This document shows positions 2,761 to 53,870 of a stretch of DNA of 64,000 nucleotides, one piece after another. The stretch is from Haematobia irritans. Lineage: Eukaryota; Arthropoda; Insecta; Diptera; Muscidae. Both the position numbers and the translations under genes were made by a program. How positions within the stretch are numbered: the stretch's first letter is position 1; each line of letters begins with the position of its first letter. The notes under the pieces are model-generated. The model saw only the letters and a list, made by a program, of their open reading frames with translations. It made no database searches and was not told where the DNA came from. The stretch spans positions 102,601,886 through 102,665,885 of the forward strand of contig NC_134398.1 of assembly GCF_050003625.1 (NCBI RefSeq). The letters are read 5' to 3'.

Positions 2761-4100
2761 ACTAAAATACACCTCTACACTTCCACGCCAAATAATCTCC
2801 CAAAAAAATCAAAAATCGTAAATAATTGAAAAATATATAAATAAAAATATATACGTAATATATATAATAAAAATAAAAATTATACGATCGTACCGGACCG
2901 CCTGTAGGGTGCAGGTGACCAAAACGATAATTTTTAACAATGCGCGTAACGCTAATGGGTCATACAAAACGAAAACCCAAAAAACTCAATTTCAAAAATT
3001 TCTATAATTTCAAAATAATTACGACTCGCGGCCCCGTGAGGGTTAACAAATAAAGCAAAGAAACACACCTCAAAAAAAAAATATGTATGTATATACGTGT
3101 GTGTATCACTGACCATACGTAGGTATGCACAATGCAAATTCAAACGTTGACTGCAGCGACGACTGATGTATGTTTACACTGGTAATACGACCAACAGAGC
3201 CTTTGGAGTCTGTGTGTATTTTGTTATTGTTTTATTTACTTCAAGTTAAAGGCAACGTAATTGCAAATAATGTTTTGAAGTAAATAAGCACTTGTCAACG
3301 TTTAAATTCACCACACAACACAAGTATATACCATTGACTTTTTCACTTTTTATTTTGATTATTCTTTCACTTGAATATCTTTTAGAAAAACGAAATTAAA
3401 CAAACGAAAGAAACGTACGTAAGTATGTAGCAACGAATGTGTGTTTATCGAAATGCAATTTGCCGTCGGCAAAACGAAATAATTGAATCAATGCTGTAAA
3501 ACGACCGCGGTTTAAATTTAAAAACACTCGCGATTTGCACTATTATTTTAATAAAACACTGACATACGCACCTGTGTGTTGATAAATAATTATTTAAATA
3601 ATTTTTTGATTTAAATTCTCCACCAATATGGCTGCAACTGTCTGCTTTTTTGTTGTTGCTTCAAAATGATGAGCACTTTCCTTTAAAAAAAGACAAAACA
3701 AAATCCTTTATTAATTGCTGTAAGCAAGTATCCGGCTCGATTGGACCAATGAATGCGTAGCACCGAAAAATAAAATAAATAAAAACACAAGGATTTAGTT
3801 TTCTTTTCAATAATCTTTCAATAAAACGTAATTTTATTGAATTTCTTGGGAGACAATATTTACCTTTTTTACAAAATCGTTGTTACAAGGACGTAATCCA
3901 ATAACGAATCAAAACAAAAGCTTAGACGCCGAAAGACGGTAATGGCGCGACTCGTTAGAAAAATGTAACGAATTGTGCTGAAAGCACAGAGCTGCATCCA
4001 GAGCTTAGGGTACATTTTCTAACGAGGGGGAAATTGTCATTTTACAATATTTTAAGTCCCCATCTAACGAATAAATTTTGATCATACGAATTTGAACTTA
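2761..4100. other. AT-rich stretch, possible LTR of the BEL copy, no gene
   Basis: No reading frame here resembles a protein. It holds the simple-sequence run TATATATAATAAAAAT around 2860 and scattered GTGTG runs. The LTR of the minus-strand BEL element should lie here, but no second LTR is in the window to define its ends. Around 3945-4030 a short inverted motif (CTCGTTAGAAAAATG versus CATTTTCTAACGAG) suggests a small relic hairpin. Confidence 0.3.
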
Positions 4101-5365
4101 AACACATATGTTCCGATATAAACAATTTTTAAACAAAATATATTTAAGTGCAAACGTGTAATGTTCCTAAACTAACACTAAATGTTTGCGACACATATGT
4201 TAATATGTTAGAATATATTAGAGTAAACATATATATGTTGTGTTATTTCATTCAGGGAGCGACAGAGAGTATAGAGAAAGAAATAGAGATGGAAGCCGGG
4301 AGGGTTGACGAAGGATATCAATATAACACATCGTGGGAATGAAAAGAGAACAATTTCTGTGAAACTGCTTGTATGTTGTTTCGGAAAACTGTTTTATGAT
4401 AAGGCCAAAAATTTGATATGCTCAGACTTAAGCATTATTATTTTTATTATTATTTAATTTGAATATTAGAATGACTATTCGGAGTAAAGGGAATAGACAT
4501 TCGGAACCAAGAGAAAACAGATTTGAAAAAAAAGCATGTGTTTTCGTCTTGAGAGCAGCATTTTATGTATGTGAGGACATGTTTTGTTGATCATTTTGGC
4601 ATTATGGGCACAATTTTTTCTTGGTTCGTTAAAAGAAATCGGAACGTACGAGGAGTATGTCAAAATATTCAGGCAAAGGAAATTAAAAAACGGTGGAAAC
4701 AAAAACAAAACAAAATTTACAAAGGGATCTTCATAGAGATGGGACAGTAAAATGAAAAAAGGGGGAAATAGTGAAAAATTAAACAGTAAAATGCATAAAA
4801 ACGACGTTTAGTTCCTCTTTATTAATAAGTAGTCCAAGAGGAGTGGACGGACACCTTCAAATATAAAAGCGGGCATTAGGTTTTGCAGCTAGAACAATTG
4901 AACAAGTTAATTTGCTTTAAAATGAATTATTAAAGAAAAGTAAAAGGCAAAACATTTTAGAGCGATAATGCCTACTTAATACCGGCCTTAAAGGTAAAAA
5001 TGAAATTAAGTACAAAACACGATAAATGCATTTAAAATGGTGTTAAATGCTAGTAAAACACTGTTCACGCGTAAATAAATTTATGTGTATATTGTAAAAT
5101 TATTTATGTATGTTTATACACGACTCCACGTTCTTCTTTTGTTAGTTTTCGAATTCCTTCCAAAATTTCAAACTTTTATACCAAAAACAGTTTTTTTGTT
5201 ACAAAATTGTTATTTGTGCAATAAAAAAATAATATTTTATCCAAAAGCTTAGTCCATTTCGTTTATATCAAGCACTGTTTCTGACTGTAAATCTTTATTA
5301 ACCCACATTTCGAAGTTTCATTATAAAAATTTAATATAGTAAAAAAAAAAATAAAAAAAAAATTG

Positions 5366-5442
5366 GTGTTCGGTCGGAGCAGGGATTGAACCCACGACCC
5401 TTTGCATGCAAATGCAGACATGCTAACCACTACTCCACGTGG
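5366..5442 (-). other. tRNA-like Pol III module 1 (composite copy A)
   Basis: Read on the minus strand it has an A-box-like segment (GTGGAGTAGTGGTTAGCATG) and a B-box-like GGGTTCAATCC, about 75 bp overall like a tRNA. It is clearly related to the tRNA head of the SINE at 20309-20661. I do not call it a functional tRNA because the stems are imperfect and the same sequence recurs inside repeats. Confidence 0.6.
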
Positions 5443-5558
5443 TCAATAAGTGTATGTTTCTGTTAAATATTGTTATGTTTGCATGGGCTCGTGGGCGCTG
5501 CAAACTATGCTATATAAATGTAACTTATAACGATAATTGTCTACTGGTGACTATAACA

Positions 5559-5630
5559 GCTACGTAGCCTTGTGGATGGCGTGTTGGTTTACAAACTGTA
5601 TGGTCCTCGGTTCGATTCTCCGTCCAGGCG
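5559..5630 (+). other. tRNA-like Pol III module 2 (composite copy A)
   Basis: The plus strand has the A-box-like TAGCCTTGTGGATGG and a consensus B box in GGTTCGATTCTCC, spanning about 72 bp. It points away from module 1, with about 117 bp between their 5' sides. It is a different tRNA family from module 1. Confidence 0.6.
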
Positions 5631-5907
5631 AAAGGTAAAATTTAAAACATTTAATAATTTCAACATTATTTGTATTACAGAAAAAGGTGCCAAGAACTAA
5701 AAATTTTCGTGGAAGTGAAAATTATGTGAGGGAATGAGCACAATCTTCTTTGGGGGGAAATTCTTCCAAGCAAATAATATTTTTGGGCTCAAAATAATAT
5801 GTTCACATAAAACAAACATATTAATGTTTCGCCAGTATCCAATAATATATGTGCTTCCAGCAAAATATGTTTGGAACATATGTTAGAGAAGCGTTTTTTT
5901 GAGAGTG

Positions 5908-6405
5908 TGCACTCAAAAAAGTGAACCCTATATTTCACTAAAGCTGTTTTAATTATACTGAAAAAAATATGCCCGGTTCCAAAGATTTTGTCTTTACTTT
6001 AAACATTTTGGTATTGATTCCGAGCCAAAGAAGCGGAGAATACACAATTCTCGCAGCAAATTTTAATTTTTCGTTTTTTCAGCTTTTTTTCTTCAACTTT
6101 ATTTTCAAAATTCAGACTCGACTTCCAGTAGAAATTATGCTATGTTTCAAGTAAAAAACGTCTTTAAAATAAAGTGTTGAAAAACATGTCCTATATTTGA
6201 ACAAAAAGACAACAAATTTAAAGACAATTTCATTAATTTTAAACAATTTTTCTGAATTATTAAAGTCAATTTGACCTTAGCCCAATAATGTTTTCGTTAA
6301 TGTTATAATACCCATTTTTAAGTCAAATCACTTAATTATAAGGACAATACGACTCCATTGAAAAGTTTGAAATCTTTGACCTCACGACAGTATTTTTTCA
6401 GTGTA
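5908..6405. repeat. Small AT-rich MITE-like relic
   Basis: This block lies between composite copies A and B. It begins GCACTCAAAAAAGTGAACCC and ends TATTTTTTCAGTGTA. The two ends are roughly inverted (about 12 bp with mismatches), as in fly MITEs carrying ACTGAAAAAA termini. No coding sequence and no sure target duplication were seen. Confidence 0.35.
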
Positions 6406-6541
6406 TATTTTAGATCGTGGAATTATTATGTTTTAAGAACGTTTCCATGACTTTAATAATTTTTTGCGTAAGTTCATTAAATTAATTAAAACAGAGGAAA
6501 AATTATGCACAAATGAAGCATAAAGATTAACTACATTCATG

Positions 6542-7307
6542 CACTGTTAGAAAAATATGTTTTTCATATGTTCCGATATAAATAAAATGTGTTTCGGGCA
6601 CAATTTTAAAACACAATTTATTTAAGTGCAAACATGTAATGTTCCTAAATTTACACTAAATGTTTGGGACATCTATGTTAATATGTTAGAATATATAATT
6701 TTTGGGGCATGAATGTTTCATAAAAGTCATATGTGTGAATGCAAAATATATAAATTTACAAATTTCGACTAAACATATTTTATTCAAAGCGACAGAGAGG
6801 GTATAGAGAAAGAAATAGAGATGGAAACCGGGAGAGTTGACGAAAGATATCAACATAACACAGCGAAAGAATCAAAAGAGAACAATTTCTGTGAAACCGC
6901 TTGTATGTTGTTTCGAAAAACTGTTTTATGATAAGGACAAAATTTTGATATGCTTAAGTCTAAATTTTAATTAAATTGAATAAAGAGAATAGACATTCGG
7001 AACCACGAGAATAGACATTTGAAAAACAAACAGCATATGTTTTCGCCTTGAGAGCAGCATTTTATGTATGTGTGGACATGTGTTTTGTTTATCATTGTGG
7101 CATTATTGGCACAATATTTTTCTTGGTTCGTTAAAAGAAATCAGGGTCCTTCATAAAAATAACGAAAGGGCGTATAGTGCCCTTTTATTTTTAGAGTTGG
7201 GACAGTAAAATGAAATAAGGAGGAAATAGTGAAAAATTACACAGTAAAATGTATAAAAACAAAGTTTAGTTCCTCTTTATTAATAAGTAGTCCTCGAGGA
7301 GTTGACG
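6542..7307 (+). mobile_element. Composite tRNA-pair element, copy B (left part only)
   Basis: It begins CACTGTTAGAAAAATATG and follows copy C closely through the AGCGACAGAGAG block to GTTGACG. There it stops abruptly before the tRNA-like modules. Confidence 0.6.
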
Positions 7308-7617
7308 CACCCTCATAAAAAATCGCTTCTGTAACATATACTCCCAAACATATTTTGCTTCAAGCATATACATTTTTGGGTATTGCCCAAACATTTATAT
7401 GTTTGATCTCTTCCAATATATAATATGTTTGAAAGCATATTGGTCTAAGCAATATATGTTTGGGTAGTCTAAGTTCCAAACATTTTGTATTTTTGCATCC
7501 AAATTCAATAATGTTGTCTTCCAAAAAACAATATGTTATTTTGTGAACATATAATATGTTTGGAAGCATTTTGCACCCAAAAATATTATATGCTTAAAAA
7601 AATTCTCCCAAACAATA
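7308..7617 (-). mobile_element. Composite element right-end fragment, inverted
   Basis: It starts CACCCTCATAAAAAATCGC, which is the reverse complement of the right terminus of copy C. It continues through the AAACATAT-rich subterminal region to GTGCTCAAAAT. It abuts copy B at 7307, so two partial copies were joined head to end. Confidence 0.55.
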
Positions 7618-8903
7618 TTGTGCTCAAAATTTTATTTATTTATTTATATATTTACAATCATAATGAATTATGAAAATAAACACACTCTTAGAAAAATATG
7701 TTTTTCATATGTTCCGATATAAACAAAGTGTGTTTCGGGCACAATTTTAAGACACAATATATTTAAGTGCAAACATGTAATGTTCCTAAACTAACACTAA
7801 ATGTTTGGGACACCTATGTTAATATGTTAAAATATATTATGTTTGGGGCATAAATGTTTCATAAAAATCATATGTGTGAATGCAAACATATATAAATTTA
7901 CAAATTTCGACTAAACATACATATGTTGTGATATTTTATCCAAAGCGACAGAGAGAGTATAGAGAAAGAAATAGAGATGGAAACCGGGAGAGTTGACGAA
8001 AGATATCAACATAACACAGCGAAAGAATCCAAAGAGAGAAATTTTTGTGAAACTGCTTGTATGTTGTTTCGGAAAACTGTTTTATGATAAGGCCAAAAAT
8101 TTGATATGCTTAAGTCTAAATATTATTTAATTTGAATAAAGAGAATGGACATTCGGAACCAAGAGGATAGACATTTGAAAAAAAGCATGTGTTTTCGCCT
8201 TGAGAGCAGCATTTTATGTATGTGTGGACATGTGTTTTGTTTATCATTTTGGCATTATGGGAACAATTTTTTTCTTGGTTCATTAAAAGAAATCAGGGGT
8301 CTTCATAAAAATAACGGCACTATACTCTTTTTAGAGTTGCGACAGTAAAATGAAATAAGGAGGAAATAGTAAAAAATTACACAGTAAAATGTATAAAAAC
8401 AAAGTTTAGTTCCTCTTTATTAATAAGTAGTCCCAGAGGAGTTGACGGACACCTTCAAATATAAAAGCGGGCATTAAGTTCGAGTTTTGCAGCTAAAACA
8501 ATTTAAAAAGTTTATTTTCTTTAAAATGAATTATTAAAGAAAAATAAAAGGCATTTTAGACCGATGGTGTTAAATGCTAGCAAAAAACTGTTCACGTCTA
8601 AATAAATTTATGTTTATGTTATAAAACTATTTATGTATGTTACTACTCGACTCCACGTTCTTCTTTTGTTAGAGTTTTTGAATTCCTTCCAAATTTTAAA
8701 GTTTTGTACCAAAAACAGTTTTTTGTTACAAAATTGTTATTTTTGCAATAAAATATAATATTTTATCCAAAAATCAGTCAATTTTGTTTATATCAAGCAC
8801 TGTTAATGACTATAAAGCTTTAATAACCCACATTTCGAAGTTTCATTATAAAAATTTTATATAGTATAAATATAAATGTGTAAATTAAAACAAAAAAAAA
8901 AAG

Positions 8904-8978
8904 TGTTCGGTCGGAGCAGGGATTGAACCCACGACCCGTTGCATTCAAGGCAGACATGCTAACCACTGCTCCACGTGG
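8904..8978 (-). other. tRNA-like Pol III module 1 (composite copy C)
   Basis: It is the same module as 5366-5442. On the minus strand it has GGAGCAGTGGTTAGCATG and the B-box-like GGGTTCAATCC, followed by CTGCTCCGACCGAACAC. Confidence 0.6.
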
Positions 8979-9093
8979 CAAACAAATGTCTGTTTCTGTT
9001 AAATAATGTTATGTTTGCATGGGCTCGTGGGCGCTGCAAACTATGCTATATAAATGTAACTTATAACGATAATTATCTGCTGGTGACCATAAC

Positions 9094-9166
9094 AGCTACA
9101 TAGCCCAGTGGATAGTGTGTTGGCGTACAAACTGTATGGTCCTCGGTTCGATTCTCCGTGCAGGCG
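9094..9166 (+). other. tRNA-like Pol III module 2 (composite copy C)
   Basis: It is the same module as 5559-5630, with TAGCCCAGTGGATAG as the A-box-like part and GGTTCGATTCTCC as the B-box part. Confidence 0.6.
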
Positions 9167-9717
9167 AAAGGTAAAATTTAAAAAATTTATAAAAGTGAAT
9201 AATTTCTTCAACATTATTTGTATTACAGAAAAAGGTGCCAAGAATTAAAATATTTCGTGGAAGTGAAAATAACGAGTATGTTAGGGAATGAGCACAATCG
9301 TCTTTGGGAAAAATTCTTCCAAGCATATAATATTTTTGGGCTCAAAATGCTTCCAAACATATAATATGTTCACATAAAACAAACATATTAATGTTTCGAC
9401 AGTATCCAATAATATATGTGCTTCCTGCAAAATATGTTTGGAACATATGTTAAAGAAGCGATTTTTTTTGAGGGTGTGTCTACCACAAAATAGTTCAGAA
9501 CTTCTTAAAATTCGTAAATTTTACCAATAATGCGCCCATCTTGAACTTCGTATGGCACTAAAGACATTTTTGCAATTTTGAACTCCACCTTTTTCTTTCA
9601 AACTTCGAAATTTTCGTTAACAAGTAAAAACAATTAATTACGTCAAATAAATGTTCTTGAATTTGTCGGAAAAAAATTACTTAATTTTGTGAAATTCACA
9701 TGACATTTGCGTTTCTA

Positions 9718-10649
9718 AAGGGTGATTCTTTTGAGGTTAGGATTTTCATGCATTAGTATTTGACAGATCACGTGGGATTTCAGACATGGTGTCAAAGAGA
9801 AAGATGCTCAGTATGCTTTGACATTTCATCATGAATAGACTTACGATCTGCCACAACGTCGAATTTTCAGTGAATGGGCCCTAGAAAAGTTGGCAGAAAA
9901 TCCGCTTTTTTATCGACAAATTTTGTTCAGCGATGAGGCTCATTTCTGGTTGAATGGCTACGTAAATAAGCAAAATTGCCGCATTTGGAGTGAAGAGCAA
10001 CCAGAAGCCGTTCAAGAACTGCCCATGCATCCCGAAAAATGCACTGTTTGGTGTGGTTTGTACGCTGGTGGAATCATTGGACCGTATTTTTTCAAAGATG
10101 CTGTTGGACGCAACGTTACGGTGAATGGCGATCGCTATCGTTCGATGCTAACAAACTTTTTGTTGCCAAAAATGGAAGAACTGAACTTGGTTGACATGTG
10201 GTTTCAACAAGATGGCGCTACATGCCACACAGCTCGCGATTCTATGGCCATTTTGAGGGAAAACTTCGGAGAACAATTCATCTCAAGAAATGGACCGGTA
10301 AGTTGGCCACCAAGATCATGCGATTTGACGCCTTTAGACTATTTTTTGTGGGGCTACGTCAAGTCTAAAGTCTACAGAAATAAGCCAGCAACTATTCCAG
10401 CTTTGGAAGACAACATTTCCGAAGAAATTCGGGCTATTCCGGCCGAAATGCTCGAAAAAGTTGCCCAAAATTGGACTTTCCGAATGGACCACCTAAGACG
10501 CAGCCGCGGTCAACATTTAAATGAAATTATCTTCCAAAAGTAAATGTCATGGACCAATCTAACGTTTCAAATAAAGAACCGATGAGATTTTGCAAATTTT
10601 ATGCGTTTTTTAAAAAAAAAAGTTATCAAGCTCTTAACAAATCACCCTT
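9718..10649 (+). mobile_element. mariner-type element, DD41D, internally deleted (932 bp)
   Basis: The ends are AAGGGTGATTCTTTTG on the left and, inverted, AAGGGTGATTTGTTAAG on the right. The element is flanked by TA on both sides (9716-9717 and 10650-10651). The opposite foldback arm has the uninterrupted site (TTTCTAATACAG near 14100), which independently confirms both boundaries and the TA duplication. It carries the C-terminal part of a transposase gene. Confidence 0.9.
9839..10543 (+). pseudogene. DD41D mariner transposase, N-terminal deletion
   Basis: The frame is open from 9839 (after a TAG at 9836) to the stop at 10541-10543 and has no frameshift. It contains the catalytic DDE/D-type motifs FSDEAHFWLNG, FQQDGATCHTA and CDLTPLDYFLWGY. 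There are 41 residues between the second and third catalytic Asp, which places it in the DD41D group of the Tc1/mariner superfamily. A full transposase is about 340-350 residues; the DNA-binding helix-turn-helix part is missing, so this copy cannot bind its ends. There is no ATG at the 5' side: the first conserved residues follow directly on a deletion joint near 9839. The clean frame suggests a fairly recent copy. Confidence 0.85.
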
Positions 10650-11636
10650 TAATACCGTTTAGATAAAATTTCCTAAAATTATTTTATTTTTTCTAAAATT
10701 AACTAAAGTTTTCTTTCCAGGTGGGTTCACTGGTTTTCAGTGTGTGTAGATAATCTGCAAGTTAGCTTTTTTGAGTTTAGCCGCTAAAATTTTCATTTTT
10801 ACGATTACCTTTTTCTAAAATCCGTTATAAAGAATATAAACTTTGTGAAAAGTTTCTTTGTGGTATTCCTCATAAAGATATCAATATTTAATTTGAAAGT
10901 GTAAATATTATTTAATATGAATATTAATTTGCGTGTTCGGAATAAAGAGAATAGACATTTGGACACTTTCAAAAATAAAAGCGGGCATTAAGTTCGAGTT
11001 TTCCGCTAAAATTATGTTTCATATTAGCGGCAAAACTTGAATCTCTAAAAGCAGAATAACATATCTTTTTTGGCAAATTGTATTATAACTTGGTGGGGAA
11101 TGATCCAAAGCAACAATTGAAAATGGTTATTTTCTTTAAAATGACTTATTAAAGAAAAGAAACCGTGAAAACATGGATATTTTAGAGCGATAATGCCAAC
11201 TTAATACCGGCCTTAAAGTTAAAAATTAATTTAAGTACAAAATTATTCGTTAATAAATATTCATATTTATTTGTATTTCTAAATACGATAAATTTTAAAT
11301 GCAAGTAAAATGGTGTTAAATGCTAATAAAAAATAGTTCACGCTTAAATAAAATTTATGTTTATATTGTAATTTACAATATTGCCAGTATTTTTCGGGCT
11401 CTTGTCCCCAAAATAAGAGGCTTTCATCCCCAATTTAATTCAAAATTCCCCATAGAAATCCCCAATAGAGTTTTTGGCAAGTTTTTTGGAAAAAGGAATA
11501 GGCTCTGCTGTAAAAAATTAGTCATAATCTATAAATTGTAAGAATATGCAAGTTTTGTTATACCAGTTTGCAAGTTACAATAAGATTAAGATTTCAAAAT
11601 CCAAAAAAATGAGACGGGTGCTCAAAATATTATCTT

Positions 11637-11800
11637 CTTTAAGCCCCTTTTGAAGCATCCCAGCAAAAAAATTTAGAAGTTCTTCCAAAGGCACAACTTT
11701 AAAAGCACTTCCAGAAGATGCACTCCCAATGATGTTCTTTATTTTAACTACCCAGGAAGTTCTTTTAATTCAATTTGTTATAACTTGTTTTTTCATACTT
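11637..11800 (+). repeat. Inner inverted repeat, left member
   Basis: The sequence around GCATCCCAGCAAAAAAATT and the GATGCACTCCCAATGATG block reappears inverted at 12598-12790, inside the foldback centre. The two members are clearly related but not identical. Confidence 0.6.
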
Positions 11801-11995
11801 TTTTCATACGTTTATGTTATTAAAGATTTACAGTCAGAAAAGAACAGTGCTTGATATAAACGAAATAAACTGAGCTTTTGGATAAAATAGTATTTTTTTA
11901 TTGCAAAAATAACAATTTTCTAACAAAAAAAAATTTTTTTCAAAAACTCTAACAAAAGAAGAAAGTCAAGTATAAACATAAATAATTTTACAATC
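11800..11995 (-). repeat. Fragment of the composite tRNA-pair family (inverted)
   Basis: On the minus strand it matches the TTCTTCTTTTGTTAGAG to TTTATATCAAGCACTGTT block of copies A and C. It lacks the tRNA-like modules. Confidence 0.5.
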
Positions 11996-12009
11996 AGTGT
12001 TGCCAGTAT

Positions 12010-12135
12010 TGGGGATTTTTCCCCAAATCGGGGATATTTTTTCGTGGATGGGGACAAAATATTTGAGTTGGGGACTTGGGGATTTGGTGGGGAATTTCCA
12101 AAAATTTGGGGTTTTTTGTGGGGAATTCTGGTCAG
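12010..12135 (+). other. G-tract cluster in the foldback centre
   Basis: There are about eight GGGG runs (GGGGAT or GGGGA contexts) within roughly 120 bases, in otherwise AT-rich DNA. Similar but sparser GGGGAT runs occur in the right arm near 13290-13350, with the complement in the left arm near 11405-11470. Confidence 0.5.
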
Positions 12136-12597
12136 TATAACAAATCAGGTTTTGAGTTATGGTTTATATGAAATTCTTTACTTCTACATCCCAGCAAAAA
12201 AAGCGTCGCCAAAAAAGTAATGGAAATGTTCTTTTTGGATCCGGAAGTGGTGCAAAATTGACGCAGAAGCGATGAATTTGACATGGGCTTGTCATAGGAC
12301 GGAAGTCCTCCATTTCAACAGCCGGTGCACTGAATTTCCATCTCTTCTTTAGGTGTGATCCGAATTTGGATGTAAATTAAAAAAATCTGTGATATTTTGT
12401 CAAATAAATAATTTTTATAATATTTTCTAACTTTTAATGGATTCTAACGTTTGTCTGAAACGTTTGGCCTCAAATATTTTCAAAAATGCACAATTTTTTC
12501 AGATTGGATTTAGCATTGTTTTCGGCAAAATTTAAATAAATTGTACCATTTTATGAATGTTTAAAATGTTTTTAACCAAATTGAAACAAAAAAGTTA

Positions 12598-12790
12598 AAA
12601 TTACCCATTAAAAGTATGAAAAAACCAAGTTATAAAAAATTGAATTAAAAGAACTTCCTGGGTTGTTAAAATAAAGAACATCATTGGGAGTGCATCTTCT
12701 GGAAGTTCTTTTAAAGTTGTGCCGTTGGAAGAACTTCTAATTTTTTTGCTGGGATGCTTAAAAAGGGGCTTAAAGAAGTACAGAAAATCT
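12598..12790 (-). repeat. Inner inverted repeat, right member
   Basis: It is the inverted partner of 11637-11800, seen in ACTTCCTGGGTTGTTAAAAT and TTTTTTTGCTGGGATGC. Confidence 0.6.
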
Positions 12791-13111
12791 TCAAAATTCT
12801 AAGAAATTGTTTACCATTGTGAAACTATTTCGTAAGGACTTGGATAGAAGTGTTTGGCCTCTCATCTGCATACATCACTGATTTGGAAAATATATATCAA
12901 ACATAATAATAGAGTTCATATCGGGGCAACAACGCCTTTTGATCGATCACCCAATTTTATTTCTTAGCTATTCAGAACTATGTTTTGATTCATAACGACA
13001 CAAGTTGACCCAACTCCTATTTTTATTTCTCCAGCATTTAGAAGATAATTTGCATAAGACACAAATTCGATGACTCTTTATACCAATAAATAATTCTGAT
13101 GAGGGATTGTA

Positions 13112-14573
13112 TCAGATAATATTTTGAGCACCCGTCTCATTTTTTTGGATTTTGAAATCTTAATCTTATTGTAACTTGCAAACTGGTATAACAAAACTTG
13201 CATATTCTTACACTTTTTAGATTATGATGAATTTTTTACAACAGAGCCTATTCCTTTTTCCAAAAAACTTGCCAAAAACTCTATTGGGGATTTCTATGGG
13301 GAATTTTGAATTAAATTGGGGATTTTTGGGGATGAAAGCCTCTTATATTGGGGACAAGAGCCCGAAAAATACTGGCAATATTGTAAATTACAATATAAAC
13401 ATAAAGTTTATTTAAGCGTGAACTATTATTTATTAGCATTTAACACCATTTTACATGCATTTAAAATTTATCGTATTTAGAAATACAAAAAAAATATGAA
13501 TATTTATTAACGAATAATTTTGTACTTAATTTAATTTTTAACTTTAAGGCCGGTATTAAGTTGGCATTATCGCTCTAAAATATCCACGTTTTCACGGTTT
13601 CTTTTCTTTAATAAGTAATTTTAAAGAAAATAACCATTTTCAATTGTTGCTTTGGATCATTTCCCACCAAGTTATAATACAATTTGCCAAAAAAGATATG
13701 TTATTCTGCTTTTAGATATTCGAGTTTTGCCGCTAATATGAAACATAATTTTAGCGGAAAACTCGAACTTAATGCCCGCTTTTATTTTTGAAAGTGTCCA
13801 AATTTCTATTCCCTTTATTCCGAACACGCAAATTAATATTCATATTAAATAATATTTACACTTTCAAATTAAATATTGATATCTTTATGAGGAATACCAC
13901 AAAGAAACTTTTCACAAAGTTTATATTCTTTATAACGGATTTTAGAAAAAGGTAATCGTAAAAATGAAAATTTTAGCGGCTAAACTCAAAAAAGCTAACT
14001 TGCAGATTATCTACACACACTGAAAACCAGTGAACCCACCTGGAAAGAAAACTTTAGTTAATTTTAGAAAAAATTTTAGGAAATTTTATCTAAACTGTAT
14101 TAGAAACGCAAATATCATGTGGATTTCACAAAATTAAGTAATTTTTTTCCGACAAATTCAAGAACATTTATTTGACGTAATTAATTGTTTTTACTTGTTA
14201 AGGTGGGTATTAAGTTCGAATTTAGCCGCTAAAAACGTAATTTTTTCACGATTACTTTTCTGTAATAATACATTTTAGGGAATACAAACTTTGTGAAAAT
14301 TTGCTTTGGGCTTTTCCCCATCAAGTTATAATAAAATTTGCAACAAATATGTATAATTTCATGCATTTTTCTTACTTATTTAGTTTTCACTTTCGCGATT
14401 TTAGCGGCTAAACTCGAATTTAATACTCACCTTTAACGAAAATTTCGAAGTTTGAAGGAAAAAGGTGGAGTTCAAAATTGCAAAAATGTCTTTAGTGCCA
14501 TACGAAGTTCAAGATGGGCGCATTATTGGTAAAATTTACGAATTTTAAGAAGTTCTGAACTATTTTCTGGTAT
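13112..14573 (-). repeat. Foldback right arm (interrupted by a MITE)
   Basis: This is the reverse complement of 9483-11634 without the mariner. It contains a 231-bp MITE at 14201-14432 that is absent from the left arm. Confidence 0.7.
14201..14432. mobile_element. Harbinger-like MITE, TTA target duplication
   Basis: The ends AGGTGGGTATTAAGTTCG and, inverted, AGGTGAGTATTAAATTCG form terminal inverted repeats of about 35 bp, continuing into TTTAGCCGCTAAAA. TTA flanks both sides (14198-14200 and 14433-14435). The left foldback arm shows the empty site CTTGTTAACG near 9615, inverted. A 3-bp TWA duplication is typical of PIF/Harbinger. There is no coding capacity. Confidence 0.75.
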
Positions 14574-19784: not shown

Positions 19785-21080
19785 ATGAAATCTGTTTTAT
19801 TCTCTTACGTTAGGTTTTGGATCATGCTACTCCTTGCCGTGCCGCTATCAGCGAAAATTACCGACTATACCAATTCGAACTACATACCGATTGTGGATGG
19901 AAATGCTATTATTTGGGAAGACTTTGGGTATTTACAGCATTCATCAAATCTGACTATGTATTCAGCTATCATAGAGGAGACAGAGGAAATGAGAAGTCAT
20001 TTTCCTAGGTCACACATGAGGCAAATATTGGAATCAGACATACGACATATGAGAACACTTATAGCGACAACTGACATTCACCATAGACACGCATTAATAT
20101 GTTAGGCACTATGTTAAAAGTAGTAGCTGGAACTCCAGATTATGACGACTTCCAGAATATAAGATTTACACAGAAAGAGCTCATTGAGTCGGAGCATAAG
20201 TGTCTTGGTATTAATAGCTATCTGCTATTAATACCAAGGCACAGAAAAGAATAAATGAATTAACAGATCAGATAAACAAACTGGTAAAATATGCGAAGAT
20301 AGAACAAAGGTTAGGTTAGGTTAGGTTATGTGGCAGCCCGATGTATCAGGCTAACTTAGACTATTCAATCCATTGTGATACCACAGTGGTGAACTTCTCT
20401 CTTATCACTGAGTGCTGCCCGATTCCATGTTAAACTCAATGACAAGGGACCTCCTTTTTATAGCCGAGTCCGAACGGCGTTCCACATTCTAGTTAAACCA
20501 CTTAGAGAAGCTTTGAAACCCTCAGAAATGTCACCAGCATTACTGAGGTGGGATAATCCACCGCTGAAAAACTTTTTGGTGTTCGGTCGTAGCAGGAATC
20601 GAACCCACGACCTTGTGTATGCAAGGCGGGCATGCTAACCATTGCACCACGGTGGCTCCCCAAGATAGAACAAATAAATACCGAGTATCTATACGAATCC
20701 CTGCTCTCAAGAGATAGAATTATTATCTCCGAACTTTAAACATTAATGTTATCGATAACACTCACAAAAATCGGAATTATTAACCCCGCAATCCTAGATT
20801 CGAATGATTTGGAAAACATTATCAATGAGCATTCTATAAACATTACAGTTGCTGACCTTATGGAGGTAGCTCAGATTAAAGTTTTATAAAGTAATCATTT
20901 TTTATATTTCATAATAAAATGTCCAACAGTTAAGTTAGCCTGTAAGAAGATAGTTTTATACCCTGTTCAACATAATGACAATATTATCGACTTTGCCGGA
21001 GGTAACGACGTGGCCGATTGCGGTGGTCATCACAGGTTGCAGTGCCGCCTTTACAGCAACATTCTGCAGAAAATTACAAA
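19785..21080 (+). pseudogene. env: Errantivirus-like envelope gene, broken and interrupted by a SINE
   Basis: The ATG at 19785 opens a frame with a hydrophobic signal-like N-terminus and the errantivirus Env landmarks NYIPIVDGNAIIWEDFGYL and RSHMRQILESDIRHMR. The first frame ends at 20103. Homology resumes in another phase (LKVVAGTPDYDDF, about 20115) up to a SINE at 20309-20661, then continues to about 20885. A membrane-anchor-like segment (WPIAVVITGCSAAF) is visible near 21010. Several stops and frame changes are present. Such proteins serve cell entry and spread in gypsy-type insect retroviruses; this copy is not expressible as one protein. Confidence 0.75.
20309..20661 (-). mobile_element. 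tRNA-derived SINE, full length, 13-bp target duplication
   Basis: On the minus strand it begins GGGGAGCCACCGTGGTGC, then an A-box-like GTGCAATGGTTAGCATG and a B box GGTTCGATTCC (20595-20605 on plus). It continues through a SINE body to GGCTGCCACATAACC and an (AACCT)n tail. The direct repeat AAGATAGAACAAA flanks it at 20296-20308 and 20662-20674. Its last 60 bases match the 3' end of the LINE at 38445-38526, so the LINE machinery probably mobilises it. Confidence 0.9.
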
Positions 21081-48927: not shown

Positions 48928-49250
48928 TACACGCAAAAAAATAATTCTTTCCTCCCAAACGAAATTTTAGACAAACAAAGTTCGTTTCTCATTTGCTTTT
49001 CGCTGTAAGGAAGTGTATTTGGGAGAAAAGTATATACTTTTTGTGATAAACGTTTATTCTTTTCTAGGATGTAAAAACAATTTCATAAGGACAAAGTAAA
49101 AAAAAACATTGTTTTCTTGCTAATTACATTTTCCCTCACATCTTTCTCACATCCACGATGTTTTTTTAGTTCTTAACACCTTTTCCTGTAATACCAACAA
49201 TGTAGAAGAAATTATACGATTTTATAAATTTTTAAAATTTTTTTACCTTT

Positions 49251-49322
49251 CGCCTGGACGGAGAATCGAACCGCGGACCATGCACTTTGTAAGCCAACAC
49301 ACTAACCACTGAGCTATGTACC
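49251..49322 (-). other. tRNA-like module 2 (fourth copy)
   Basis: The minus strand has GCTCAGTGGTTAGTGTG as the A-box-like part and GGTTCGATTCTCC as the B-box part. Confidence 0.6.
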
Positions 49323-49436
49323 TGTTGTGGTCATCAATAGATAAATTTCCATATAAGTTATATTTATATAGCATAGCTTGCGGCGCCCACGAACCGTATA
49401 AACGAAGTTTATTTAACAGAAACAAACATTTAGTTT

Positions 49437-49505
49437 GGCACGGTGGAGCAGTGGTTGCTACGTCCGACTTGCATGCCAAGGGTCGTGGGTTCGATCCCTG
49501 TTTTT
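49437..49505 (+). other. tRNA-like module 1 (fourth copy)
   Basis: The plus strand has GGTGGAGCAGTGGTTGC and GTCGTGGGTTCGATCCCTG, the same family as the SINE head at 20309-20661. It points away from the module at 49251-49322. Confidence 0.6.
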
Positions 49506-49683
49506 GTTTTTTACATATATTCCAGATATGTTCGGAAGATGCCGAAAAAATGTTCAACATTTCATTGTAGTATATTAAAATTTGAACTGTAAAATGTGTC
49601 TTATTAAAGACCTAAAGTCAGAAAAGAACAGTGTTTGATATAAACGAAATGGATTGTGTTGTTGTTTCAAAAATAACTTTTTT

Positions 49684-49865
49684 GTTGTTGTTTTTTATTT
49701 CAGCTTAAAACCATACATTGACTAAACTACAAGAGTAGCTTAACCAACAGAGGAAAAGAATGTTTGTCAAATTTATTTGGGCAAAGCCCTATAGACTGCA
49801 AGATGGTTGGATGGACGCACGTTTCGGAATTACCACATTCCTCATCAGCATCCTCTACTTGCAGC
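49684..49865 (-). mobile_element. 5'-truncated retroposon, 14-bp target duplication
   Basis: AAAATAACTTTTTT flanks it at 49670-49683 and 49866-49879. On the minus strand it ends TTTAAGCTGAAATAAAAAAC followed by an AAC repeat, like a LINE 3' tail. Related pieces lie near 38526 and 39955-40540. Confidence 0.75.
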
Positions 49866-50020
49866 AAAATAACTTTTTTTATTGAAAAAATAAAAATTTT
49901 GTAACAAACGAATTTTTTTGGTGATAAAAGTTTAAAATTTTCGAAGCAATTCAAAAAACTCTAACAAAAGAAAAACGTTTTCGGTACACGTTTTCCAAAC
50001 GTTTTTTTTCTTTGCGTGTA

Positions 50021-53089: not shown

Positions 53090-53870
53090 CATCGTAAGAG
53101 ACAGGGATCGAATCCACGACTTTACAACTGCGAATCTCAGCTTATCCCACTAGGCTAAGCCTGAGTTGTATTTAAACTTAACTAGCAATGTATATAAACA
53201 GACTTTGGATTTTGGTAACTTTTAAATTAATTTTTATCGAAACTAAAGAATAGCGAAAGGAAATAAATCAGTTTTTATATGTTAATTTTTTGTTTACAAC
53301 ATCACCGCGTAATTGTTAACAACCAAAATCAAAAGACTTTTATATTTTAATACATAAAAATTCAATGATTAATAAAAACAACACAAAACAAAAAAAAAAA
53401 AAAACATTTATCAATTCGCCCCAAAGTGGAGCCGAACCGCCGACCTTCGGACTGGGAAGCTGAGCTTCAACCACTAGGCTAAGCCAGGTTGGTTTTTCGA
53501 TTTGCCTAGCACTTCATTTGAACAGTCTTTGGATTTTGGTTTAAGTTTTCGTATATTCAAATTAATTAATCGCGACACTAACGAAATCGAGTTGGCATGT
53601 TCACTTGATACAACTTCAACAAATATTTATTTTATCCTTTTTCTACAACTATAAATCAAAAGACATATTTTAACAATTAATTTGTAATCGCAAATAAAAA
53701 ACAAACAAACAGAAAAAAAATTGAACTGCCCATGAGCGAGGTTGAACAGCCAACCTTACAACTGTGAAGCTGAGCTTCTCCCACTAGGCTAAGCTCTGGC
53801 TTGTGGGTGGATGGCAAAATAATTATAGGAACATCTACAAGTCTTTTGATTTGGGTTGCATAAAAAGGTA
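53090..53870 (-). repeat. Tandem array of three tRNA-like SINE units
   Basis: Three minus-strand tRNA-like modules start near 53170, 53490 and 53805, about 315 bases apart. Each has GGCTTAGCCTAGTGG (A-box-like; the third has only GCTTAGCCTAGTGG) and a B-box-like element, strongest in GTGGATTCGATCCC and CGGTTCGGCTCC. Each is followed by a block with CTTTGGATTTTGG or a variant. The units have diverged strongly in their spacers. Confidence 0.55.

Follow-up and report, generated by a model that had tools for sequence, protein, structure and literature searches.

The window analyzed here, a 64-kb stretch of Haematobia irritans DNA, contains a repeated element that combines terminal inverted repeats (TIRs) with two divergent tRNA-like modules, termed M and P. 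This raises the questions of what kind of mobile element it is, how it came to contain the two modules, and whether they are working parts or passengers. The reading that we regard as probable is that of a non-autonomous CACTA-like DNA transposon that carries a fixed M/P pair, most likely as passive cargo.

Element copies in the window

The following features were identified (position, strand, description):

4103..5907, plus: copy A, a diverged copy or subfamily, left tip lost or diverged
5366..5442, minus: module M of A
5560..5630, plus: module P of A, with a single mismatch per box
6542..~7307, plus: copy B, a coreless left portion of a C-type element, fused to an inverted E fragment
7308..7682, minus: inverted right-hand portion of an E-family element (97.9% identity to the E copy at locus L062); copy C adjoins
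7683..9476, plus: copy C, a full non-autonomous TIR element of 1794 nt, tips CACTCTTAG...GAGGGTG
8903..8979, minus: module M of C (A box 8963-8973, B box 8919-8929, then a T-run)
8980..9095, plus: spacer of C with TATATAAATG; TATATAAAT is shared with A and three D copies
9096..9166, plus: module P of C (A box 9101-9111, B box 9145-9155)
9167..9287, plus: segment I of C, conserved across C, D, and E and resembling an intron (GGTAAAA...TTTGTATTACAG)
20312..20656, minus: resident SINE, its 5' part a relative of M, with a (TAACC)n tail and a 13-nt target duplication, TTTGTTCTATCTT
48930..50018, minus: D-family element, TA-CACGCAAAG...TTTTGCGTG-TA, with an M-spacer-P-I core as in C
49262..49316, minus: module P of D, A box to B box
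49444..49498, plus: module M of D, A box to B box

The divergent arrangement of M (minus strand) and P (plus strand) that the initial annotation had described for A and C was confirmed, and D also carries the pair. The right end of C lies within 2 bases of the end given there (9478). The element had also been described as having TIRs and no protein. TIRs were indeed observed, short and imperfect, and the longest stop-free stretches were 81 amino acids in the C consensus and 80 in one D copy. Elements of the C family are 1.8 kb long, and those of the D family 0.9 kb. Elsewhere in the window, a tandem tRNA-like array is located at 53.1-53.8 kb.

The modules resemble tRNA genes in their promoter boxes

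In both modules the A box and the B box are 44-45 bases apart, M and P are separated by a spacer of 116-117 nt, and behind M there is a T-run in all three elements (C, A, and D). A strict scan, which allowed at most one mismatch in all and required boxes 40-48 nt apart, yielded eight A-/B-box pairs in the 64-kb window, compared with a mean of 0.125 and a maximum of 1 in 40 dinucleotide shuffles. Five of the eight belong to C, D, and the M module of A, one is located in a SINE, and two in another repeat; P of A has two mismatches in total. Looser rules gave 20 pairs against 14.35 by chance, which is near chance level, so that the strict scan alone is informative.

True tRNA genes were considered and ruled out. 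ARAGORN predicted no tRNA in the window, Rfam had no match in the window at the gathering threshold, the Rfam tRNA model had no match at E<=1 in the region 4000-9600, and folding of six modules resulted in z-scores from -1.92 to 0.97. The term "tRNA-like" thus applies to the promoter boxes of the modules only.

Termini and target duplications point to a CACTA-like DNA transposon

The tips of the C, D, and E families are CAC...GTG, with one tip mutated in some of the 20 D copies. A search for target duplications, suggested in the initial annotation, was successful: 37 of 42 full C copies are flanked by a 2-bp duplication, mostly TA (TA in 29, CA/CA in six, and TG/TG in two). The two flanks of the C copies agreed in being TA or non-TA (Fisher p=4.5e-6), and no two of the 42 copies had the same flanks on both sides. 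Five copies, including the C copy of the window itself, have unlike flanks. For D, 20 copies were fetched, 13 of which had both tips intact to a pattern, and 12 of these 13 showed a 2-bp duplication. In addition, a C copy nested within a D element could be compared with the empty site in the D sequence, TTTATAAAAT, and reads TTTCTA-(C copy)-TAAAAT.

The predominance of TA (29 of the 37 matched pairs) would fit a mover of the Tc1/mariner type. However, such a mover would be expected to produce TA strictly, whereas CA/CA or TG/TG occurred in 8 of 37 cases, showing that other targets are used as well, and the CAC...GTG tips also speak against it. We therefore regard a Tc1/mariner-type mover as very unlikely. 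CACTA members of the CMC group are reported to have CAC/GTG termini and a 2-bp target site duplication (PMC6004678). A transposase acting in trans would recognize the CAC...GTG tips and leave the mostly-TA duplication of 2 bp. The genome contains two weak matches to PF02992 (E 3e-4 and 6e-4), one of them above the cut-off, whereas none were found in 14 control genomes. The weaker match, L087 (Transposase_21, 25.7 bits, under the curated cut-off of 28.6), was the one transposase locus examined. The 4 kb read there contained no C, D, or E tips, and an autonomous partner was not found at this locus.

The M/P pair is an inherited part of the element

Copy numbers appear to be high. The first-look searches returned 1755 and 1157 candidates for two parts of C and 2287 for D (40 scored in each case), which suggests that copies of the pair-bearing element number in the thousands. 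The order M, spacer, P, segment I is identical in C, A, and D, and the ends of C and D differ. Because C and D have little in common outside the core, the M/P pair must be older than their split.

To avoid selection by the core, 30 C loci were picked via the left body of the element. The main copies included 28 with full-length M and 28 with full-length P, all with constant site and orientation, and 27 of the 30 contained both. The initial claim that several copies keep the divergent pair was thus borne out. Further matches to M or P at the 30 loci that differed in place or orientation resemble adjacent SINEs or D-type elements. The D copies had been chosen with a core-bearing query, and the presence of the modules in them is therefore given by construction.

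These results bear on the idea that M and P arrived later, as separate SINE insertions in individual copies of an otherwise plain TIR element. M is a relative of a young and common SINE (the 40 copies scored, of 2822 candidates, were 99-100% identical), as this idea would require. Yet both modules occupy the same place at 27 of 30 loci, which argues against insertions into single copies, and site, orientation, and a homologous spacer are shared by C, A, and D. The common position rules out later independent insertions in these three, and M has neither the SINE body beyond the first T-run nor the (TAACC)n tail, nor is it flanked by a long target duplication. We consider this explanation extremely improbable. 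The M/P pair is old and has been inherited with the element.

M is related to a SINE, and P has a less clear origin

Alignment of M with the resident SINE gave a score of 55 for C (shuffle maximum 13) and of 45 for D (shuffle maximum 14). In C the match extends beyond the tRNA part, and GACCGAACAC is common to M and the SINE outside that part. M corresponds to the 5' head of the SINE plus about 10 nt of its body, including the A and B boxes. Judged by its sequence, M is SINE-related. The initial annotation had proposed a DNA element with two captured SINE heads. The DNA element and a SINE-related M were recovered, and the support is limited to M.

P of C has a complete A box, a B box that is one mismatch off, and the spacing of a tRNA. 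It aligns weakly with M (19) and with the SINE (17; shuffle maximum 15), and for the pair of D the score just equals the shuffle maximum of 14. The surroundings of P allow a different explanation, namely that a gene of the parent transposon left its promoter, first exon, and small intron as fossils in P and segment I, and that only M is SINE-derived. The tRNA-likeness of P would then be secondary. This explanation fits the motif TATATAAAT, which C, A, and D have some 50 nt before P, and GGTAAAA...GTATTACAG, which comes after P in these three and in E; it also fits family E, in which segment I is kept and P is reduced to its second half. Against it speak the boxes and tRNA spacing of P in C and the weak alignments with M and the SINE, although the alignment does not exceed the shuffles in D; no long ORF follows downstream, and no autonomous copy is known. 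We regard a gene fossil as rather unlikely.

Under the preferred reading of a transposon with an inherited pair, the element ancestral to families C and D would have gained the 5' SINE fragment M with its A box, B box, and T-run, and insertion of M in this common ancestor forms part of the reading. The relation of M and the SINE is seen in the sequences, and the transfer would have occurred from the SINE to the element. M would thereby have come to face away from P, a second tRNA-like unit with a TATA-like sequence upstream and the intron-like segment behind it. The pair would then have multiplied as a fixed core by DNA transposition, as is seen for the copies read.

Conservation does not single out the modules

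The initial annotation had proposed a comparison of the modules with the spacer, and the expected higher conservation did not materialize in young C copies or between C and D. In young C copies the differences were 33/2183 in M, 30/3209 in the spacer, and 16/1988 in P; M thus tends to exceed the spacer (p=0.07), and the same tendency was observed in D copies (33/1470 versus 34/2318, p=0.10). When eight compartments were compared in D copies, P had diverged least (11/1420; versus spacer p=0.064). Between C and D, whole modules had 20/143 changes and the spacer 20/114 (p=0.49). A near-invariant spacer in the first profile was discarded, as those copies had been core-chosen and the effect was mostly gone once the left body served to select the copies.

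The boxes alone gave a different picture. Between C and D, the A and B boxes had 2/44 changes, compared with the spacer (p=0.040) and with 57/328 in the other core parts (p=0.027), both uncorrected, and both box changes fit the box consensus. With an earlier D consensus from three copies, the box versus spacer comparison gave p=0.10. Between C and A, the boxes were no better kept than the spacer (3/44 versus 7/116).

Could the pair function as a bidirectional Pol III unit and aid the transposon, for example by TFIIIC binding and openness to the transposase or by short RNAs? Besides this box-level constraint between C and D (uncorrected p of about 0.03-0.04) and the T-run behind M in C, A, and D, the state of the boxes would be in agreement with it: among the full-length modules of the body-chosen C loci, boxes with at most one mismatch were present in 26 of 28 M and in 28 of 28 P, and boxes of this quality were present in M of 15/20 and in P of 17/20 D copies, which the core-bearing query had chosen. 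However, the intact share is about that expected from an estimated neutral divergence of 1-2%, M tends to diverge more than the spacer, the boxes are no better kept than the spacer between C and A, and L066, a C-type copy from a random stretch, has lost the A box of M. Family E also spreads although it lacks the pair: neither M nor the A box of P is present in the two E copies that were read (L062 and L016, 97.5% alike), and the best 40 of 872 E candidates match one of these copies along its entire length with 98-100% identity; hence the pair is not required for movement. A working unit is thus unlikely, and we consider it slightly less likely still that DNA transposons have domesticated a divergent Pol III pair, one member taken from a SINE, as a working part, resulting in thousands of mobile, bidirectional TFIIIC/Pol III sites that were spread as DNA and selected for their boxes.

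Because a close relative spreads without them, the modules are probably passengers, and the M/P pair a fixed, mostly passive cargo. The pair is possibly still transcribed. If some copies bind TFIIIC or yield short Pol III RNAs in both directions, as they may, this would account for boxes that are slightly better conserved than their surroundings when C is compared with D.

Relation to known elements

Two tRNA-like units in one element are also present in Twin SINE of Culex, but there both units have the same direction and TIRs are not known. With 0.9 kb and 1.8 kb, respectively, D and C exceed most MITEs in length. The termini of DINE-1/INE-1 of Drosophila differ from those described here. Among tRNA-derived SINEs, the resident one shares its 5' head with A and B boxes with M, whereas the element as a whole has TIRs, a 2-bp target site duplication, and a DNA mode of movement. 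DINE-1/INE-1 is likewise reported to be a very abundant, non-autonomous element of flies (PMC2374699). CMC-NA_1, CMC-NA_2, and ENS1_Cis are alike in their CAC...GTG termini and 2-bp duplication, the non-autonomous ones being MITEs; compared with their description, the present element adds a fixed divergent tRNA-like pair (PMC6004678). A TIR element with such a pair was not found described in the accessible portion of the open-access literature.

Should the modules be functional, a DNA transposon would seed very many divergent Pol III/TFIIIC sites across the genome, which would be relevant to its folding and to small-RNA output. If they are inactive, the core of a DNA transposon still contains a fixed 5' SINE part whose amplification has relied on a different mechanism. 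For repeat annotation, the modules alone would cause such copies to be miscalled as SINEs.

The divergent module pair

The initial annotation had described two tRNA-like modules in copies A and C of an element with terminal inverted repeats, and both were indeed found there: a minus-strand module M and a plus-strand module P, each with an A box and a B box, separated by a spacer of 116–117 nt. The same annotation saw no protein in the element; stop-free stretches of the C consensus reach 81 amino acids at most. The divergent module pair is a real finding, and it is common to more than one element family. The copies and fragments in this part of the window are:

4103–5907: copy A, a more diverged relative of C, left tip not recognisable
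6542 to about 7307: copy B, left part only, directly followed by the next fragment
7308–7682: inverted fragment of family E, a third family
7683–9476: copy C, a complete element

A large palindrome at about 10740–14060 holds pieces of the C left body in its arms (consensus 415–501 and 774–961) and adjoins a mariner-like transposase fragment (9839–10543, named by eye).

A strict scan for A/B box pairs (no more than one mismatch over both boxes, spacing 40–48 nt) yielded 8 pairs in the window, whereas 40 dinucleotide shuffles averaged 0.125 and never exceeded 1; five of the eight belong to A (M only), C and the element of family D. A looser scan gave 20 pairs versus 14.35 by chance, and therefore isolated weak box matches carry no meaning. 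ARAGORN detected no tRNA in the window, Rfam recognised no tRNA at the modules, and the folding of six modules revealed nothing unusual (z from −1.92 to 0.97). M and P resemble tRNA as promoters only. On the minus strand at 53090–53800, a tandem row of three tRNA-like modules about 315 nt apart was also observed, with T-runs after the first two.

Movement and relationship of the element families

Searches of the 1.17-Gb assembly, whose repeats resemble those of a muscoid fly, with two parts of C gave 1755 and 1157 first-look candidates, which are unconfirmed as copies; here and in the other searches scoring covered the best 40. From the 60 loci of the two C searches, 11 repeat views of places already counted and 7 loci without a tip pair in the fetched stretch were removed, leaving 42 copies. 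The proposed search for target duplications was positive: the 2-bp flanks match in 37 of the 42 (TA 29, CA 6, TG 2), left and right flanks agree in being TA or non-TA (Fisher p = 4.5e-6), and no pair among the 42 has identical flanks on both sides. At one locus (L045), where a C copy is nested in a D copy, a single insertion is seen directly: the D site is TTTATAAAAT, compared with TTTCTA[C]TAAAAT at L045. The C element moves as DNA.

The window also contains a member of family D:

48930–50018, minus strand: D element, tips CACGCAAAG...TTTTGCGTG, unlike those of C

For D, 2287 first-look candidates were obtained, and among 20 fetched copies the target duplication matches in 12 of the 13 in which both tips fit a pattern (TA 11, CA 1). 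The core, that is, M, spacer, P and the intron-like segment I directly after P, is expected in these copies by construction, because the D query itself contained it. Independently of that query, a D copy carrying both modules was met in L066, one of six 10-kb stretches taken at random. An alignment of the C and D consensuses runs through the whole core and is poor over most other parts. As the alignment is confined mostly to the core, the pair predates the split of C and D.

Family E was read from two copies that are 97.5% alike:

L062:2185–3160, and L016: E elements, 976 nt

Of the core, both have segment I and the latter half of P, which includes a B-box-like piece; M and the A box of P are absent from both. 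The best 40 of 872 candidates for the L062 copy cover at least 971 of the 976 nt at 98–100% identity. Of the three families, E therefore seems the most uniform, and it moves without the module pair.

According to PMC6004678, the CACTA elements within the CMC group have CAC/GTG tips and a 2-bp duplication, and PMC12730594 gives CA..TG termini and duplications of 2–5 bp for the wider group. Two weak matches to PF02992 were found in the genome, one above the cut-off, compared with 0 of 14 control genomes. One weak CACTA-type transposase locus is:

L087:1102–3343: frames of 222 and 466 amino acids, PF02992 match not above the cut-off

The 466-residue frame matches Transposase_21 (E 7e-6) and DUF4218 (E 0.0035), both below cut-offs, and the tips of C, D and E were not found in the 4 kb read around this locus. 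On the basis of CAC/GTG tips, a 2-bp duplication and weak transposase matches without shared tips, we call the elements "CACTA-like", moved by a putative transposase. Repeats of GCGAAGTTTGGAAGAA lie upstream at the L087 locus.

Origin of M and P

The window includes a SINE with which the modules were compared:

20312–20656: tRNA-headed SINE, 13-nt duplication, (TAACC)n tail

Further copies lie at L062:899–1237 and L064:5885–6166, and the best 40 of 2822 first-look candidates have 99–100% identity. M aligns with the first 78 nt of the SINE with a score of 55 (shuffle maximum 13). The match takes in GACCGAACAC, beyond the tRNA part, and where the SINE reads CAAAAAGTTTTT, M passes into a T-run. 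M therefore looks like the 5′ part of the SINE, closed by a T-run in the manner of a short Pol III unit, and the transfer presumably went from SINE to M. The suggestion of two captured SINE heads has support for M. P aligns weakly, with scores of 19 with M and 17 with the SINE (shuffle maximum 15), and the M/P pair of D itself scores 14, equal to the shuffle maximum. P may mark a fossil gene start, as would fit its surroundings: TATATAAAT precedes it in C, A and D, and the segment behind it (9167–9287), preserved in C, A, D and E, has intron-like ends, GGTAAAA...GTATTACAG, followed by an exon-like stretch.

Conservation of the pair

Most likely, the elements represent a non-autonomous CACTA-like transposon that carries a SINE 5′ part and a second tRNA-like unit as cargo. 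The transposon would have gained the SINE part beside the second unit before the C/D split and would have carried the pair along ever since. When the C and D consensuses are compared, whole modules do not surpass the spacer in conservation (20/143 versus 20/114, p = 0.49). At 30 C loci picked by the left body, differences from the majority were 33/2183 in M, 30/3209 in the spacer, 16/1988 in P, 14/1733 in the segment after P, 67/5814 in the right body, and 105/9851 (positions 41–370) and 294/11579 (810–1205) in the left body; M tends to lower conservation than the spacer (p = 0.07). In 20 D copies the values were M 33/1470, spacer 34/2318, P 11/1420, segment I 49/2415, left 106/5218, right 82/3188, left tip 36/1180 and right tip 9/798, with P the least divergent part, though versus spacer at only p = 0.064.

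A bolder and less likely reading, in which the pair is a bidirectional Pol III unit under selection, is weakly favoured by the boxes, which between C and D have 2 changes in 44 positions, each permitted by the box consensus. This gives p = 0.040 versus spacer, 0.036 versus other module positions and 0.027 versus the whole remaining core, values that are uncorrected, come from one pair of families and take sites as independent; previous tests with three D copies, subject to the same limits, had given 0.10 (spacer) and 0.022, and 0.036 for four random 11-nt blocks. However, the comparison of C with copy A showed no extra box conservation (boxes 3/44, spacer 7/116), and family E argues against any need for the pair. 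Boxes with at most one mismatch are present in 26 of 28 full-length M and 28 of 28 P at the C loci (full-length M is absent from L037 and L056, and P from the fetched stretch of L037 and L054), and in 15 (M) and 17 (P) of the 20 D copies. In a C-type copy in the random stretch L066, the A box of M is lost.
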